A DNA stretch of 30,271 bases, taken from positions 1-30,271 of the IMG/VR virus record IMGVR_UViG_3300045999_005817; one strand, given 5' to 3'. The notes under the pieces are model-generated. The model did no database searches. It had not been told where the DNA came from and worked only from the letters and a program-made list of their open reading frames with translations. The stretch comes from a virus. Positions 3,282 through 24,704 of this stretch are shown here, one piece after another. The first letter of the stretch is position 1, and the number at the start of each line of letters is the position of its first letter. Position numbers and translations under genes: made by a program.

Positions 3282-4886
3282 ATGACTATTGCATTGCAAC
3301 CAATTAAATTTAGATACCAAGGCAACGGGGCTACTGCCATCTTTTCGTTTGCAAATAAAATTTATGACGAAACAGATTTAATTGTAGAAATTTTAGACAG
3401 GACTACATCTGCGTTAATTGAAACGCTTACATATGTAACGCACTATAGTGTAAGTATTGCTGCCAACGGTTATGCGACTGTTACGATTACTAATCCTGCC
3501 AAAATACCAAGCAATACTCAAGATGTTTTGTTGCGAGCTTTATTTCCATTTACACAAACGGCTGAATTTAATTCAGGAACAGTATTGCCCGCTGAAACTA
3601 TTGAGAACATGGGCGACAAACTTACATCTATTGTTCAGCAACTTGATGAAAGCGTTGGCCGTTCCTTAAAGTATAATGCTCAAAGCCCTGTAACCAATCC
3701 AACTATTGCTAATCCCGTTGCTGATGCAACCCTGGCATTTGACGGAACAACTGGTGCATTAAAAGCTGGGGCAACATTGGGTGATATTTCCAATGCGGCG
3801 GCCAATGCAACGTCGGCTGCTGCTTCTGCTGCCACGGCATCGGCTGCGTCTGTTGCGGCACAAGCGGCCAATGGTGGTATTGGTCGGGTAGTCCGCTTGG
3901 CAACCAGCGGCAACGTCACCTTGTCGGGACTGCAAACGATTGATGGTGTTGTCGGCGCGGAGGGCGATAGGATTCTGGTGCGTGCAAATACCACATCTTC
4001 ACAAAACGGCCTATACAACATGTCCAGCGGTGCGTGGACAAGGGTGACAGATGCGAATACTTGGTCGTCTTTTGTAGGGATGATTATCACGGTCGCTGAA
4101 GGGACGGCACGCAAAAACCATGTCTATATCAGCCTGGCGACACAAGGCGGCACACTTGGCGCAACGGCAATCACTTTCGACACTGTTCCTATTAATTTAC
4201 ATGTCACCACTGCAAAGATTGCGGATGGTGCAGTTACATCGGTTAAAATTGCGGATGCAAACGTCACCACTGCAAAGATTTTGGATGGGAACGTAACTAA
4301 CGCAAAACTGGCTACCCAACCTAATGTTTACAACGGAGGAACAGCTGGTGGCACAGCCAATGCTATAACCCTAACAGTTCCTGGACTTGCGGCGTCGTGG
4401 GGGGCTGGAACTACCATTGTGTTCAAGCCGTCAGCAACAAATACAGGTGCGGCAACCGTAAACATTAACGGTGTTGGTGCGGGAAACATTGTAAGGCCTA
4501 GTTTCGCTTCAAGTACAACAGGTTGTGTTTCTGGAGAAATTATAAATGGCGTGATGTGCGTATTGGTTTATGACGGAATAAATTATGTAATCCAAAACCC
4601 AAATATAACCAACCCAGCTGGCGCTTATCTAGCTATTAACGGACTTATTATCCAATGGGGTTCTGGGTCAGTTCCTGCAAACACAACTTCAACTTTTAAT
4701 TTTCCAATTACTTTTCCAAATGGAATTTTGACTTGCGTGGTTGGTCTTGGGATTACAACAAATACCTCAACAAACGGCAATGACTCAACGGGCGGAGGCA
4801 GTATAAGCACATCGCAGTACCAAGTAAGGAATGGCATTGGGTCTGGAGGAAACAGACCTTTTCAAATGATTGCAATAGGATATTAA
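3282..4886 (+). CDS. Tail fibre protein, T7 gp17-like N-terminus
   Basis: Residues 1-130 (ATIFSFANKIYDETDLIV, later NMGDKLTSIVQQLDESVGRS) match the phage T7 tail-fibre N-terminal domain that anchors the fibre to the tail. Residues 165-200 are an Ala/Ser-rich, probably trimeric coiled stretch. Residues 200-305 are a GDRILVRANT..NGLYNMSSGAW type fibre-shaft module. Residues 306-345 repeat VTTAKI.DG. units. The C-terminal 80 residues (GLIIQWGSG, then FNFPITFPNGILTCVV) resemble gp53-like fibre tips, the likely receptor-binding end. DNA from about 3780 to 4200 is visibly GC-richer than the AT-rich flanks, as expected for a mosaic host-range gene. The tail-fibre assembly gene follows after one base. 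Confidence 0.88.
   Translation: MTIALQPIKFRYQGNGATAIFSFANKIYDETDLIVEILDRTTSALIETLTYVTHYSVSIAANGYATVTITNPAKIPSNTQDVLLRALFPFTQTAEFNSGTVLPAETIENMGDKLTSIVQQLDESVGRSLKYNAQSPVTNPTIANPVADATLAFDGTTGALKAGATLGDISNAAANATSAAASAATASAASVAAQAANGGIGRVVRLATSGNVTLSGLQTIDGVVGAEGDRILVRANTTSSQNGLYNMSSGAWTRVTDANTWSSFVGMIITVAEGTARKNHVYISLATQGGTLGATAITFDTVPINLHVTTAKIADGAVTSVKIADANVTTAKILDGNVTNAKLATQPNVYNGGTAGGTANAITLTVPGLAASWGAGTTIVFKPSATNTGAATVNINGVGAGNIVRPSFASSTTGCVSGEIINGVMCVLVYDGINYVIQNPNITNPAGAYLAINGLIIQWGSGSVPANTTSTFNFPITFPNGILTCVVGLGITTNTSTNGNDSTGGGSISTSQYQVRNGIGSGGNRPFQMIAIGY
4203..4280 (+). repeat. Direct repeats in the tail fibre shaft
   Basis: The 18-mer gtcaccactgcaaagatt occurs at 4203-4220 and 4263-4280, exactly 60 bp apart, with a weaker related unit between. 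It encodes the VTTAKI.DG repeats common in fibre shafts and could support length change by slippage or recombination. Confidence 0.75.
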
Positions 4887-17155: not shown

Positions 17156-17183
17156 TTGACTTACCCTGCAAAATGCGTATGGT
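17156..17183 (+). promoter_or_regulatory. Promoter feeding leader RNA 1
   Basis: TTGACT (17156-17161), 16-nt spacer, TATGGT (17178-17183). It starts just after the HNH stop, and the predicted start point falls at the first base of the leader hairpin (17190). Confidence 0.5.
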
Positions 17184-17189
17184 GAATGT

Positions 17190-17269
17190 ACTGTTTGCAG
17201 GACAGTGCTAAGACCCTTTAGGGATGGTGTGTGCCTGCAATTCGCACATCATCTCTAAGGGGTTTTTTT
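17190..17269 (+). promoter_or_regulatory. Structured leader RNA 1 (attenuator-like, copy 1)
   Basis: P1: ACTGT (17190-17194)/ACAGT (17202-17206). P2: ACCCTTTAGGGATG (17213-17226) pairs with CATCTCTAAGGGGT (17250-17263), extended by GTGTGC/GCACAT (17229-17234/17244-17249). P2 is followed by seven T (17263-17269) and at once by the ATG of the next gene (17270). It therefore has the shape of an intrinsic terminator, but its 3' arm contains AAGGGG, the only Shine-Dalgarno for that gene. A homologous copy lies at 17497-17575. Likely a cis-acting switch of transcription or translation. Confidence 0.65.
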
Positions 17270-17461
17270 ATGGCCGTACTACACAACCTTTCCCAAGAAT
17301 ACTTTGCCGCCTTGCGGGAAGATGCCGATAGGGTAAACGACATGGGCGGATATTCATTTGCCGCCTACCATAAACAGCTTGATTTAATAGACACGCTGGA
17401 AGATTTTTTCCTCAAACAAAAATCTGAAAAAAATAAAATTACTCGGGCATATACTTTTTAG
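17270..17461 (+). CDS. Small protein controlled by leader RNA 1, 63 aa
   Basis: Starts MAVLHNLSQEYFAALREDAD at 17270, directly after the leader's poly-T; an earlier in-frame start at 17231 would lie in the hairpin loop. The protein is helical (HKQLDLIDTLEDFFLKQKS) with a Lys-rich end. No family recognised. Its 5' end (ATGGCC) is the same as that of the gene after leader 2, so both genes sit in an equivalent regulatory setting. Confidence 0.6.
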   Translation: MAVLHNLSQEYFAALREDADRVNDMGGYSFAAYHKQLDLIDTLEDFFLKQKSEKNKITRAYTF

Positions 17462-17496
17462 TTGCCACAGATAAAACAATGTTGTAGGTTGCAACA

Positions 17497-17575
17497 ACTG
17501 TTATTGCGCGGCAGTGAAACCCTATTTGTGAAGGTGTGTGGCGCAATCGCACACTTTCACTAATGGGGTTTTTTT
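17497..17575 (+). promoter_or_regulatory. Structured leader RNA 2 (attenuator-like, copy 2)
   Basis: P1: ACTG (17497-17500)/CAGT (17512-17515). P2: 17519-17538 pairs with 17550-17569 over 20 positions with a single T-T mismatch, followed by seven T (17569-17575) and the ATG at 17576. Primary sequence shared with copy 1 includes ACTGTT, CAGTG, ACCC, GGTGTGTG, a GCAAT..CGCACA apical part and GGGGTTTTTTTATGGCC. The GGGG Shine-Dalgarno of the replication gene is buried in the stem. No separate promoter is clear; upstream there is a further small hairpin GTTGT/ACAAC (17481-17496 region). Confidence 0.65.
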
Positions 17576-18385
17576 ATGGCCAGAATTAGAACAATTAAGC
17601 CAGAGTTCCCGCACTCTGAAAGCATGGGGAAAATAAGCCGTGATGCACGGTTAGCTTTTATCCTTATGTGGACTATCGCAGATGATTCTGGGAGGCTTCG
17701 CGGAAATTCGCGAATGCTCGCGAGCCTTCTTTTTCCATACGACGAGGACGCTGGAAAAAAGATTGATATATGGATAGCCGAATTGCATGAGCAAGGTTGC
17801 GTTATCCGATACAAGGCCGAAAATTCAGAATACATCCAAATTAAAAAATGGACGGAACATCAAAGGATTGACAAGCCTTCACCAAGCAAAATTCCAGCAT
17901 TCGAGGAGGATTCGCAGATTATTCGCGAGGATTCGCCGAACGTTCCTGTTAGGAAAGGAAGGGAAAGGAAAGGAAAGGAAGGGAATGGAACAGGAAAAGA
18001 AAAGGATGGGAATATATCTAACGATATAAACCCCCTTACCCCCTTACCTGATTGGATGCCATTGGATGCGTGGGATGGTTTTTGCAAGATGCGGGGCAAA
18101 ACATTTACGCCTCACGCTAAGCAGCTGGCCATCAAAACGCTGGACGGCTTTCGCAACGCAGGATTCAACCCAAGAGAAGTTTTAGAACAATCCATCATGA
18201 ACGGCTGGAAAGGCCTGTTCGAACCAAAACCGAAAGGAAACCGAAATGAAAACGCTAGAACAAATTATGGCAGATATTCCCCTCCACCAGGAAAATCACA
18301 GCAGGCAGCAGATGCAATCAACAGGGCACTCGACGAACTTGACGATGAGTCCAACACCATCAACGCCCTATATCGACACCTCTAA
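17576..18385 (+). CDS. Phage replication protein (initiator/helicase-loader type)
   Basis: This 269-aa protein opens MARIRTIKPEFPHSESMGKI, continues SRDARLAFILMWTIADDSGR and reaches WTEHQRIDKPSPSKIP, a signature shared by many phage replication proteins with an N-terminal winged helix (residues 1-105). A low-complexity basic linker (RKGRERKGKEGNGTGKEKDG, about residues 125-145) leads to a C-terminal helical domain (WDGFCKMRGKTFTPHAKQLA, GWKGLFEPKPKG), like DnaD/helicase-loader C-termini. The DNA of the linker is a purine-only run of GGAAA units. Expression should depend on leader RNA 2. Its 3' 140 nt overlap the next gene. Confidence 0.75.
   Translation: MARIRTIKPEFPHSESMGKISRDARLAFILMWTIADDSGRLRGNSRMLASLLFPYDEDAGKKIDIWIAELHEQGCVIRYKAENSEYIQIKKWTEHQRIDKPSPSKIPAFEEDSQIIREDSPNVPVRKGRERKGKEGNGTGKEKDGNISNDINPLTPLPDWMPLDAWDGFCKMRGKTFTPHAKQLAIKTLDGFRNAGFNPREVLEQSIMNGWKGLFEPKPKGNRNENARTNYGRYSPPPGKSQQAADAINRALDELDDESNTINALYRHL
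17950..18012 (+). repeat. GGAAA-type purine tract inside the replication gene
   Basis: About 60 nt of almost pure purine made of aggaa/gggaa units encodes the Lys/Gly/Glu linker of the replication protein. Slippage here would change the linker length or shift the frame. Confidence 0.6.
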
Positions 18386-19215: not shown

Positions 19216-19280
19216 GCGATGTACCAAACGCGGGGCAAAGTGATTGTAGCCCCCCTTAAAATGCGAAATGGTAAATAGGT

Positions 19281-19397
19281 AGGGGGTGGCCTCCAGCACA
19301 AGGGGGTGGCCTCCAGCACAAAAAATCACATTTACTGTTGTATTTCAAGTTATTATGTGATGGTCATGCCCAGCACAAGGGGGTCACCCCCAGCACA
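19281..19397 (+). repeat. Iteron-like 20-bp repeats, candidate origin
   Basis: agggggtggcctccagcaca is repeated perfectly in tandem (19281-19300, 19301-19320). A third copy with 17/20 identity lies at 19378-19397, also preceded by cagcaca. Between copies 2 and 3 lies an AT-rich stretch bounded by ATCACAT (19325-19331) and ATGTGAT (19355-19361). Iterons plus an AT-rich dyad right after the replication genes are what a theta-type phage or plasmid origin looks like. Confidence 0.6.
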
Positions 19398-19416
19398 TAC
19401 CGAGGAATCCTCGGTA
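19398..19416. repeat. Perfect 19-bp palindrome
   Basis: TACCGAGGA-a-TCCTCGGTA, one base after the third iteron. It is a good dimer-binding site and fits as part of the origin or as an operator. Confidence 0.7.
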
Positions 19417-19451: not shown

Positions 19452-19478
19452 AAAAAAGGGGGAGCCGAAGCCCCCCCC
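19452..19478 (-). terminator. Intrinsic terminator of the right minus-strand operon
   Basis: On the minus strand an 8-bp G/C stem closed by a TTCG tetraloop is followed by six T (19457-19452). The 5' arm comes from a run of ten C on the plus strand (19471-19480). It lies about 90 nt past the last minus-strand stop (19565); nothing coding is seen between. Confidence 0.82.
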
Positions 19479-19564
19479 CCTGCTAGTTCATGGATGGAAC
19501 ACAATTATCAAAACCACCACAACCAGCCGCTGGTGTTTTATGCCACCGCCAGCTGGGCAATGGG

Positions 19565-22702: not shown

Positions 22703-24250
22703 ATGGACAATAACCTAGCCTATAAGCAATTGACGGCCAAGCTATCTGATAGATACTGGCGGCTTAACAATTTGTATTATATCCGCGATGCAGACGGCAA
22801 TAAAGTTTTGTTTAAGTTTAATTGGATGCAAGAAGAGCTGTATAGGAATCTTTGGCATTTTAATGTTATCCTAAAGGCCAGGCAGCTTGGGTGCACTACG
22901 TTTACTTTGCTTTATTTCTTGGATTCTTGCTTGTTCAACAGTAACCATGCGGCGGGCATTATCGCGCACACACAGTACGATGCGGAGAATCTATTTAAGA
23001 ACAAGGTAAAGTTTGCTTACGATAACTTGCCAGAATGGCTTAAAAAAGAAAGGCCGACTAAGTCAGCATCAGCAAGCACGCTTACGTTTAGCAATGATAG
23101 CTACATCACCGTGGGGTTGTCGTTGCGTTCTGGTACGTTTCAAAAGGTATTAGTGTCGGAGTACGGGAAAATATCCGCGCGGGATCCTATGAAGGCCGTG
23201 GAGATTAAAACAGGGGCATTAAACACTGTACCTGTTGAGGGGCAGATTATCATTGAATCAACCGCGGAGGGTAAGACGGGCGAATTTTATAACATGGTGG
23301 AACGTGCCAGAGAGTTAGAATTGCTCGGGCGGCCGCTTACAAGAAAGCAACCGCGCTTTCATTTTTTCCCTTGGTTTAAGAATGACAACTATCAACTATC
23401 GCCACAAGAAACAGAGCGAACAGCAATCCCCACGGAGTTGCGGGAATATTTGGATGGCTTAGGCGTAAGTAAAGAACAGGCGGCTTGGTATGCAGAGACT
23501 TTGCGTATTCAGGCGGACAAGATGAAGCAGGAACACCCTAGCACACCAGATGAAGCATTTGAGGCGCAATTACATGGGGCGTATTACTTGGGAGAAATGC
23601 GCGCCTTGCGTAAGAATAAACAGATAGGCGGCTTTAAGTATGACCCAAGCCATAGTGTCTATACGGCGTGGGACTTAGGGCTAAATGACCAGATGGTTAT
23701 TTGGTTTTTTCAGATGATAAACGGCGTGCCAAGGTTTATTGATTATCACGAAAGCATGGATGAAGGCTGGAATTATTACGCGCAGTTATTGCAGGGCAAG
23801 GGCTACACGTATCAGCGGCATTTTTTCCCGCATGACGGCAACAAACGGGTTAGGGGTGGCGAGGTAATAACAGATAGGGAACAGGCGTTGAATGTTGGCA
23901 TCAGGCCGATTGATGTTATTCCAAGAACCACCAGCGTGATGATTGATATTAGGAATTACTGCAAGCCCGCCTTGCTGCAAAGCATGTTTGATGAGGAGAA
24001 TTGCAGCCTTGGGATTGATAGGTTGGATAGTTATCGCAAGAAATGGAACAGGGCAACGGCGCAATATGAGGATTCACCCCATCATGATGAAGCTAGCCAT
24101 GGCGCAGACGCATTTAGGACGTTCGCAGTGGCATTTAAGACGGGCAAGCTAGGTGATAGGTACGCCGAAGTTAAAAGTGTTCCATCGGGCACGACAACGA
24201 TTCAGAGGGTAAACAGTATATCGCGGGGGTTGCGTGCTAGAAATTTATAA
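22703..24250 (+). CDS. terL: Terminase large subunit
   Basis: This 515-aa protein has the ATPase and nuclease parts of a packaging motor. KARQLGCTT (58-66) is a deviant Walker A lacking GK, VLVSEYGKI (149-157) the Walker B with Glu153, and IIIESTAEGKTGEF (182-195) the coupling motif. In the RNase-H-like nuclease AWDLGLND (322-329), FPHDG (375-379) and HGADAFR (466-472) supply the acidic metal ligands. The R/K-A-R-Q-.-G form of Walker A is known in some large terminases. It packages DNA through the portal encoded four genes on. Confidence 0.93.
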   Translation: MDNNLAYKQLTAKLSDRYWRLNNLYYIRDADGNKVLFKFNWMQEELYRNLWHFNVILKARQLGCTTFTLLYFLDSCLFNSNHAAGIIAHTQYDAENLFKNKVKFAYDNLPEWLKKERPTKSASASTLTFSNDSYITVGLSLRSGTFQKVLVSEYGKISARDPMKAVEIKTGALNTVPVEGQIIIESTAEGKTGEFYNMVERARELELLGRPLTRKQPRFHFFPWFKNDNYQLSPQETERTAIPTELREYLDGLGVSKEQAAWYAETLRIQADKMKQEHPSTPDEAFEAQLHGAYYLGEMRALRKNKQIGGFKYDPSHSVYTAWDLGLNDQMVIWFFQMINGVPRFIDYHESMDEGWNYYAQLLQGKGYTYQRHFFPHDGNKRVRGGEVITDREQALNVGIRPIDVIPRTTSVMIDIRNYCKPALLQSMFDEENCSLGIDRLDSYRKKWNRATAQYEDSPHHDEASHGADAFRTFAVAFKTGKLGDRYAEVKSVPSGTTTIQRVNSISRGLRARNL

Positions 24251-24704
24251 ACCGACAGAGCAAGACGTTTCTGATGTATTTGTTTTGCTACAAAGATACG
24301 CCACAGAGAGTTTGCAGGGGAACATGTGCAAGCCTGATGATGAGCAGATAGTAAAATCCTTAACGGAAATCTTTAATTCAACAAACTTTATGCGGTTGAT
24401 TGCGCGGCGTGATGGTAAAGTTGTGGGAATTGCCTTTGGTTTTATTGGCCATACGTGGTGGAAAAGGCCGTGTGGTAGTATTGATATGTTTTATGTTGAC
24501 CCTGAAGAGCGTGGTAGTGGACTATCAAGACTATTGGTAGAGCGGTGTATAGAGCAGTTCAAAGAGTTTGAAGTTGGTTTTATTTGGGCGGGTTCAGAAT
24601 CTGGAATGGGCAGGAAAAACGAAACACTTTTCAATAATTTATTTTTGAGGTATGGTTTTACTGAAGTTGGTGGCGGCGCACTTGTATCTTTTGTTGGAAA
24701 ATAA
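24234..24704 (+). CDS. GNAT-family N-acetyltransferase
   Basis: GTG start with a GGGGG ribosome site, 17 nt inside terL. Residues 55-100 follow the GNAT fold: LIARRDGKVVGIAFGFIG, then IDMFYVDPEERGSGLSRLL (motif A, acetyl-CoA pyrophosphate loop) and the C-terminal strand FLRYGFTEVGG. At 156 aa it is complete. Its substrate is unknown. GNAT genes beside terminase recur in podoviruses; acetylation of a virion or host protein is a possible role. Confidence 0.85.
   Translation: MLEIYKPTEQDVSDVFVLLQRYATESLQGNMCKPDDEQIVKSLTEIFNSTNFMRLIARRDGKVVGIAFGFIGHTWWKRPCGSIDMFYVDPEERGSGLSRLLVERCIEQFKEFEVGFIWAGSESGMGRKNETLFNNLFLRYGFTEVGGGALVSFVGK

Follow-up and report, generated by a model that had tools for sequence, protein, structure and literature searches.

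We describe a leader RNA element consisting of a short hairpin (P1) and a long terminator-like hairpin (P2) with mutually complementary loops, which stands twice in the window (the whole stretch of DNA analysed, a virus record of 30,271 nucleotides) and recurs in front of replication genes and other genes on phage contigs of unrelated sequence. The two hairpin loops covary, as expected of a kissing-loop RNA judged by its sequence, and a physical contact between them, in cis or in trans, is predicted. The element represents a real, covarying RNA class that is apparently undescribed. Control by attenuation is likely given the predicted fold, and we consider it probable that the element works as a self-contained attenuator cassette governed by P1-P2 kissing, with a preferred logic in which the contact in cis switches the gene on and the terminated leader switches it off in trans.

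The 30-kb record encodes podovirus-like head, packaging and tail genes, and carries copy A of the element (17190-17269) before a 63-aa ORF and copy B (17497-17575) before the replication initiation gene (Table 1). Both copies share the order P1, P2, seven T and ATG, align with 82% identity over 63 bases (E 2.3e-9) as the sole match of each other in the record, and are predicted to fold stably (z = -7.2 for A and -6.3 for B, with no shuffled sequence equally stable). Their P2 stems compensate each other's changes, e.g., GGGATGG/TCATCTC in A and GTGAAGG/CTTTCAC in B, and the linker between P1 and P2 measures 1-4 nt. These results confirm the paired leaders reported in the first-pass annotation, including their location, their homology, the T7 run leading directly into ATGGCC, the GGGG within the 3' arm of P2 and the interpretation of stem differences as covariation. 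The hairpin dimensions given there have to be corrected, as P1, described as ACTG/CAGT, is present but comprises 5-6 bp (ACTGT/ACAGT in A; ACTGTT/GGCAGT in B), and P2 has 24-25 bp rather than 14-20 bp. PHROG profile alignments beginning at residue 1 or 2 support the rep start codon at 17576. Elsewhere in the window, positions 19268-19400 and 19454-19481 cover repeated AGGGGGTGGCCTCCAGCACA-like units and a strong minus-strand terminator facing them, and a GNAT-type acetyltransferase gene (24234-24701) lies between the terminase and portal genes; a terminase query against genome contigs retrieved no relative.

Table 1 Features of the two leader copies and their genes in the window.
Feature	Position	Strand	Basis
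Copy A promoter TTGACT-N16-TATGGT with A17190 as predicted +1	17156..17183	+	hexamers kept in homologues
P1 hairpin of copy A, ACTGT-(TTGCAGG)-ACAGT, kissing loop 17195-17201	17190..17206	+	folding
Terminator hairpin P2 (24 bp) of copy A with CCTGCAA as its kissing sequence (17234-17240) and SD-like GGGG in 3' arm	17210..17266	+	
T7 run of copy A, directly followed by ATG of 63-aa ORF	17263..17269	+	
63-aa ORF behind copy A, without known family	17270..17461	+	
Weak promoter-like sequence of copy B, TTGCCA-N17-TAGGTT, distance to P1 as in copy A	17462..17490	+	
P1 hairpin of copy B, ACTGTT-(ATTGCGC)-GGCAGT, kissing loop 17503-17509	17497..17515	+	
Terminator hairpin P2 (25 bp, one mismatch) of copy B with GCGCAAT as its kissing sequence (17541-17547) and SD-like GGGG in 3' arm	17516..17572	+	
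T7 run of copy B, directly followed by ATG of rep	17569..17575	+	
Replication initiation protein, 269 aa, PHROG 2149/1408	17576..18385	+	profile match

The loop complementarity was absent from the earlier description of the element. In both copies the seven nucleotides of the P1 loop correspond exactly to the reverse complement of the P2 apical loop sequence (UUGCAGG/CCUGCAA in A and AUUGCGC/GCGCAAU in B), a match reached by local shuffles in 1.4% (A) and 0.9% (B) of cases. The relatives L003 and L025 carry the loop pairs ATTGCGG/CCGCAAT and GTGCAGG/CCTGCAT (the latter with one G-U), respectively, so that over the four types five of the seven loop positions are altered on both sides, and L003 and L022, whose flanks are nearly equal, nevertheless differ by a paired change across the two loops. 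The conserved loop bases pointed out in the first-pass annotation are not positions of a ligand- or protein-binding type, being the two halves of a covarying helix whose letters differ among phages. Predicted pairing of the loops of A and B amounts to about -9 kcal/mol for cognate and -3.9 and -3.7 for crossed combinations, and in L058 and L062 to -7 to -12 for cognate and 0 to -2.4 for crossed ones; with so few cases, the poor cross-pairing among copies of one genome may be due to chance.

A pattern search requiring neither a T run nor an ATG returned the same window family and three unrelated sequences, and the ATG junction of this family is therefore not a product of the search design. Further matches of the first pattern (L012, L014, L016/17, L018/19, L023, L026 and L029) turned out to be plain terminators or chance. 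The gene behind the element in window relatives is a MARIRT-type rep, another rep (L022) or the 63-aa ORF, and in Bacteroidetes phages the element is also found before a ParB-like gene (L058, L063, L066) and an HNH-type gene (L062), these gene names being our reading of the sequences. Since the downstream genes vary independently of it, the element can be regarded as a movable regulatory cassette. Searches by blastn gave only chance-level matches for copy A against named phages and no match for copy B against plasmids. Moreover, the element occurred in none of 77 window-type rep loci, and the searched loci of this set yielded no hit to the window-family model; the rep type does not carry the element. 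In two relatives, the ORF starting from the ATG after the element is either only MGKNNV* (L004:2248-2270) or about 60 aa long (L005:596-775), and both overlap at their ends with the beginning of the rep gene that follows (ATGTTTAG), for which reason the product of this ORF may matter less than its translation.

The sigma-70-like sequence TTGACT-N16-TATGGT ends 6 nt 5' of the first P1 base in copy A, L003, L004, L020, L022 and L025, with the hexamers kept in L004 while the spacer letters differ. It is predicted to set the transcription start at the first P1 base of copy A and its relatives, and more weakly so in copy B, where the corresponding sequence was not reported by the consensus scan. 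The same scan, which cannot exclude a promoter, picked up nothing promoter-like on the minus strand close to the element, including just downstream, that would point to a separate antisense RNA. Between promoter and gene lies an intrinsic terminator, as judged by its GC-rich predicted hairpin and U run. No ATG is conserved between the leaders of A and B and the predicted transcript starts with P1, and leader-peptide attenuation, which needs a conserved short ORF ahead of the terminator, was consequently rejected.

The first pattern scan also matched sequence-unrelated contigs with equal architecture (L011/L015/L031, L013 and, provisionally, L028), having the loop pairs CGTCTCAC/GTGAGACG in L011/L015/L031 and TGCGGG/CCCGCA in L013. 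In L011 and L015 the elements precede a replication gene and a helicase-like gene, and just 5' of P1 there is a TAnnTTTG box, which we take to be the Bacteroidetes promoter motif. Named phages fetched solely via this rep protein carry the element as well (Flavobacterium phages 11b, tooticki, lillamy and elemoA, Olleya phage Harreka_1 and Cellulophaga phage phi13:2). Furthermore, the design stands before replication operons of Bacteroidetes phages. Rep alignment A1, with no selection on RNA, gave 77 usable loci of viruses, and 46 of them showed P1/P2 loop complementarity over 7 nt or more in front of rep, compared to 2 of 77 on the reverse strand and 0 of 77 after shuffling. Among strong terminators, 40 of the 56 located at most 60 nt before rep qualified versus 9 of 178 at other positions of these loci, and several of the nine are further true copies; in the window-type rep set the count was 3 of 193. 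The TAnnTTTG box was present upstream of P1 in 31 of 37 distinct Bacteroidetes elements, mostly 2-12 nt away, and P1-P2 linkers were 12-21 nt long. In 36 of the 37 the distance from the T run to the next ATG was 0-20 nt, with direct adjacency in 11; the terminator abutting the start codon, correctly observed for the window copies, is common but not essential.

Type I elements have a conserved UGAA/GGAU internal loop in P2 (a tandem G-A), and in their P1 loop the kissing part is followed by a conserved ATA. In L090, L101, L079, L058 (663-750) and L046, P2 contains an AGUA/GAAA-like internal loop resembling the sarcin-ricin motif. Rep relatives in bacterial genome assemblies (L214-L241) had the element in 4 of 28 cases, at a looser threshold, versus the 46 of 77 viral contigs, possibly a sign that its main carriers are virulent phages. 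On the minus strand of Klebsiella phage Kp4865-4 (L051), antisense to the rep gene region, 12 nt of a hairpin loop are complementary to a terminator-like loop close by, whose T run occupies 4006-4010 in reverse-complement coordinates. Stenotrophomonas phage SOVA965 (L052) resembled a further copy at first and was excluded, as its long-range pairing of about 20 bp (about 3430-3533), which ends in T5 and is followed by a small ORF and then rep, is not bounded by loops; it is possibly another kind of leader.

Across 16 type I sequences, all helices taken together were 96.9% paired, with 24 of 28 pairs changed on both sides, and the kissing helix was 98.4% paired with 7 of 8 pairs so changed; its covariation reached 0.637 compared to 0.182 in shuffled controls and at most about 0.10 when slid. 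The type II counterpart gave 95.6% and 5 of 7. Type I and II elements had been picked by loop complementarity, which biases the kissing-helix counts, and a covariance model ignoring the loop pairs was built for this reason. It found six distinct elements beyond its training set (L057, L059/60, L063/66, L095, L073 and L080/75), all of which have complementary loops of 6-8 nt. The prediction of the first-pass annotation that further homologues with compensatory changes exist is strongly borne out by pattern, protein-led and covariance-model searches. Kissing pairs changed at about the rate of stem pairs; faster change in loops than in stems was looked for and not seen, and there is no sign of the immunity-type or diversifying selection that a role in trans exclusion might cause.

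In the mechanism we propose, the promoter would start the RNA at P1, and the polymerase would meet the intrinsic terminator formed by P2 and T7 about 80 nt further on, at the start codon of a replication gene or another early gene or shortly ahead of it. The P1 loop (7-8 nt) would pair with the P2 apical loop into a kissing helix, and the making or blocking of this kiss would set how often P2 closes and, with it, how much terminated leader is made relative to read-through mRNA. In copies of the window type the P2 base would also mask the Shine-Dalgarno sequence, such that the same choice would affect translation. According to the preferred logic, a cis kiss in the nascent RNA would hold back closure of the P2 base (ON), and accumulating terminated leader, which carries both loops, would compete for them in trans (OFF). 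Attenuation has the support of the anatomy, namely the promoter, the 80-nt leader, the terminator at the start codon and, in window-type copies, the Shine-Dalgarno sequence within P2. Termination itself, the direction of the switch and the feedback in trans are what we infer from this architecture, and the gene would be silent unless P2 is prevented from forming. The proposal that a leader with a terminator at the ATG is a switch remains the best class of explanation, with complementary loops taking the place of the suggested ligand- or protein-type positions.

Geometry, crudely approximated by a straight coaxial model, suggests that window copies keep 13-15 of 24 P2 levels while kissing in cis, and because their linkers are only 1-4 nt long the kiss would open the P2 base, comprising the terminator clamp and the Shine-Dalgarno sequence. 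For the Bacteroidetes types with their longer linkers, the same crude model leaves nearly all of P2 compatible with the kiss. Cis kissing and full P2 would hence be exclusive in the window copies but not in the Bacteroidetes types, which speaks against taking one shared mechanism for granted; a shared principle could be a kinetic cis effect before P2 closure, or trans pairing between a finished and a nascent leader. We prefer cis ON and trans OFF, yet the data do not separate it from control in cis only, where the kiss within the nascent RNA would act as a timer or set point of termination, hindering or helping P2 with no RNA in trans. Such a device is a serious possibility, though not the one we expect. 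The evolution of kissing pairs at the stem-pair rate is what structural constraint predicts, and the Bacteroidetes linkers could span a P1-kiss-P2 stack, whereas the short window linkers would leave either the kiss broken or P2 open, and a pure set point has no obvious need for 7-8 bp of perfect pairing. Extending cis ON and trans OFF to widespread self-antisense phage attenuators, in which the leader reports its own concentration and hence the phage genome number via trans loops, is speculative and rather doubtful.

The P1-kiss-P2 fold might instead be recognised by a protein or ligand (Rep, a phage antiterminator or a host factor) deciding on termination, with the kiss as scaffolding. The conserved internal loop and ATA of type I and the AGUA/GAAA-like internal loop in some other types would suit such a site, but the window-family P2 has no such internal loop, the downstream genes differ and the types have little sequence in common, which makes this reading unlikely. 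Even less probable is that the terminated RNA of about 80 nt is itself the product, i.e. a small RNA for other targets or a building block of loop-joined oligomers, with the gene expressed by leakage or from another promoter. Own promoter and terminator, two complementary loops able to pair between molecules and the existence of phage RNAs oligomerising by kissing loops (PMC12286853) are in line with this, while the steady spacing of 0-20 nt to the start codon and the Shine-Dalgarno sequence within the window-type P2 argue for control of the downstream gene. That the loops are merely an inverted repeat in DNA, e.g., a repressor operator, with an incidental RNA fold, is highly improbable: complementary loops are inverted repeats by definition, but these lie exactly in the loops of hairpins with covarying stems, in register with promoter and T run, and their letters have no consensus between phages.

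The onset of replication is a central step of infection, and its control is little known outside a few model phages. A compact RNA cassette recurring before replication genes across promoter types, with loop pairs that differ between phages and remain complementary, would constitute a new RNA class and could yield independent RNA regulators for engineering. If the leader is self-antisense, it would control copy number with no need of an additional antisense gene and might also exclude related phages in a loop-type-specific manner. The cultured Flavobacterium, Cellulophaga and Olleya phages allow immediate testing. In addition, searches blind to loop-loop pairing can overlook the defining feature of such elements.

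In agreement with the earlier statement that no described family of this form is known, no Rfam 15 family scored above its gathering threshold in the window and 19 element-bearing loci, where only a tRNA was found, and no description of the element was found in the openly readable journal literature. Covarying kissing loops, shown to act between molecules, are also known from the phage and prophage RNAs ROOL and GOLLD (PMC12286853), which however comprise hundreds of nucleotides, form nanocages and are neither leaders nor terminators. The C4 RNA of phages P1 and P7 resembles the element in that it is a small RNA encoded by a phage, that its complementary stretches are probably situated in loops and that it acts on an mRNA of the phage close to the ribosome binding site (PMC12197685); in contrast to a leader hairpin pairing with its own terminator loop, C4 targets the ant mRNA, and its Rfam covariance model (RF01695) gave no match to the element. 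In the I-complex plasmids (IncK, IncB/O, ColIb-P9), RNAI and SLI likewise control a replication gene by kissing, with specificity set by the loop letters (PMC10724649), but the antisense RNA is transcribed separately and control is translational via a pseudoknot, not through a terminator at the start codon. The nearest functional parallel is the pT181 repC attenuator of Staphylococcus aureus plasmids, the leader of a replication gene in which hairpin-loop kissing is part of control and the terminator hairpin holds the rep ribosome binding site (PMC5435934), comparable to the SD-like GGGG in the P2 3' arm of the window copies. No upstream segment was found to pair with the terminator's 5' arm, and by eye the flanking bases do not extend the complementarity, so that membership in the pT181 type was rejected. 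In pT181 the antisense RNA is a separate molecule and an antiterminator base-pairs with the terminator 5' arm; here both loop partners reside in one RNA and their pairing is confined to the loops.
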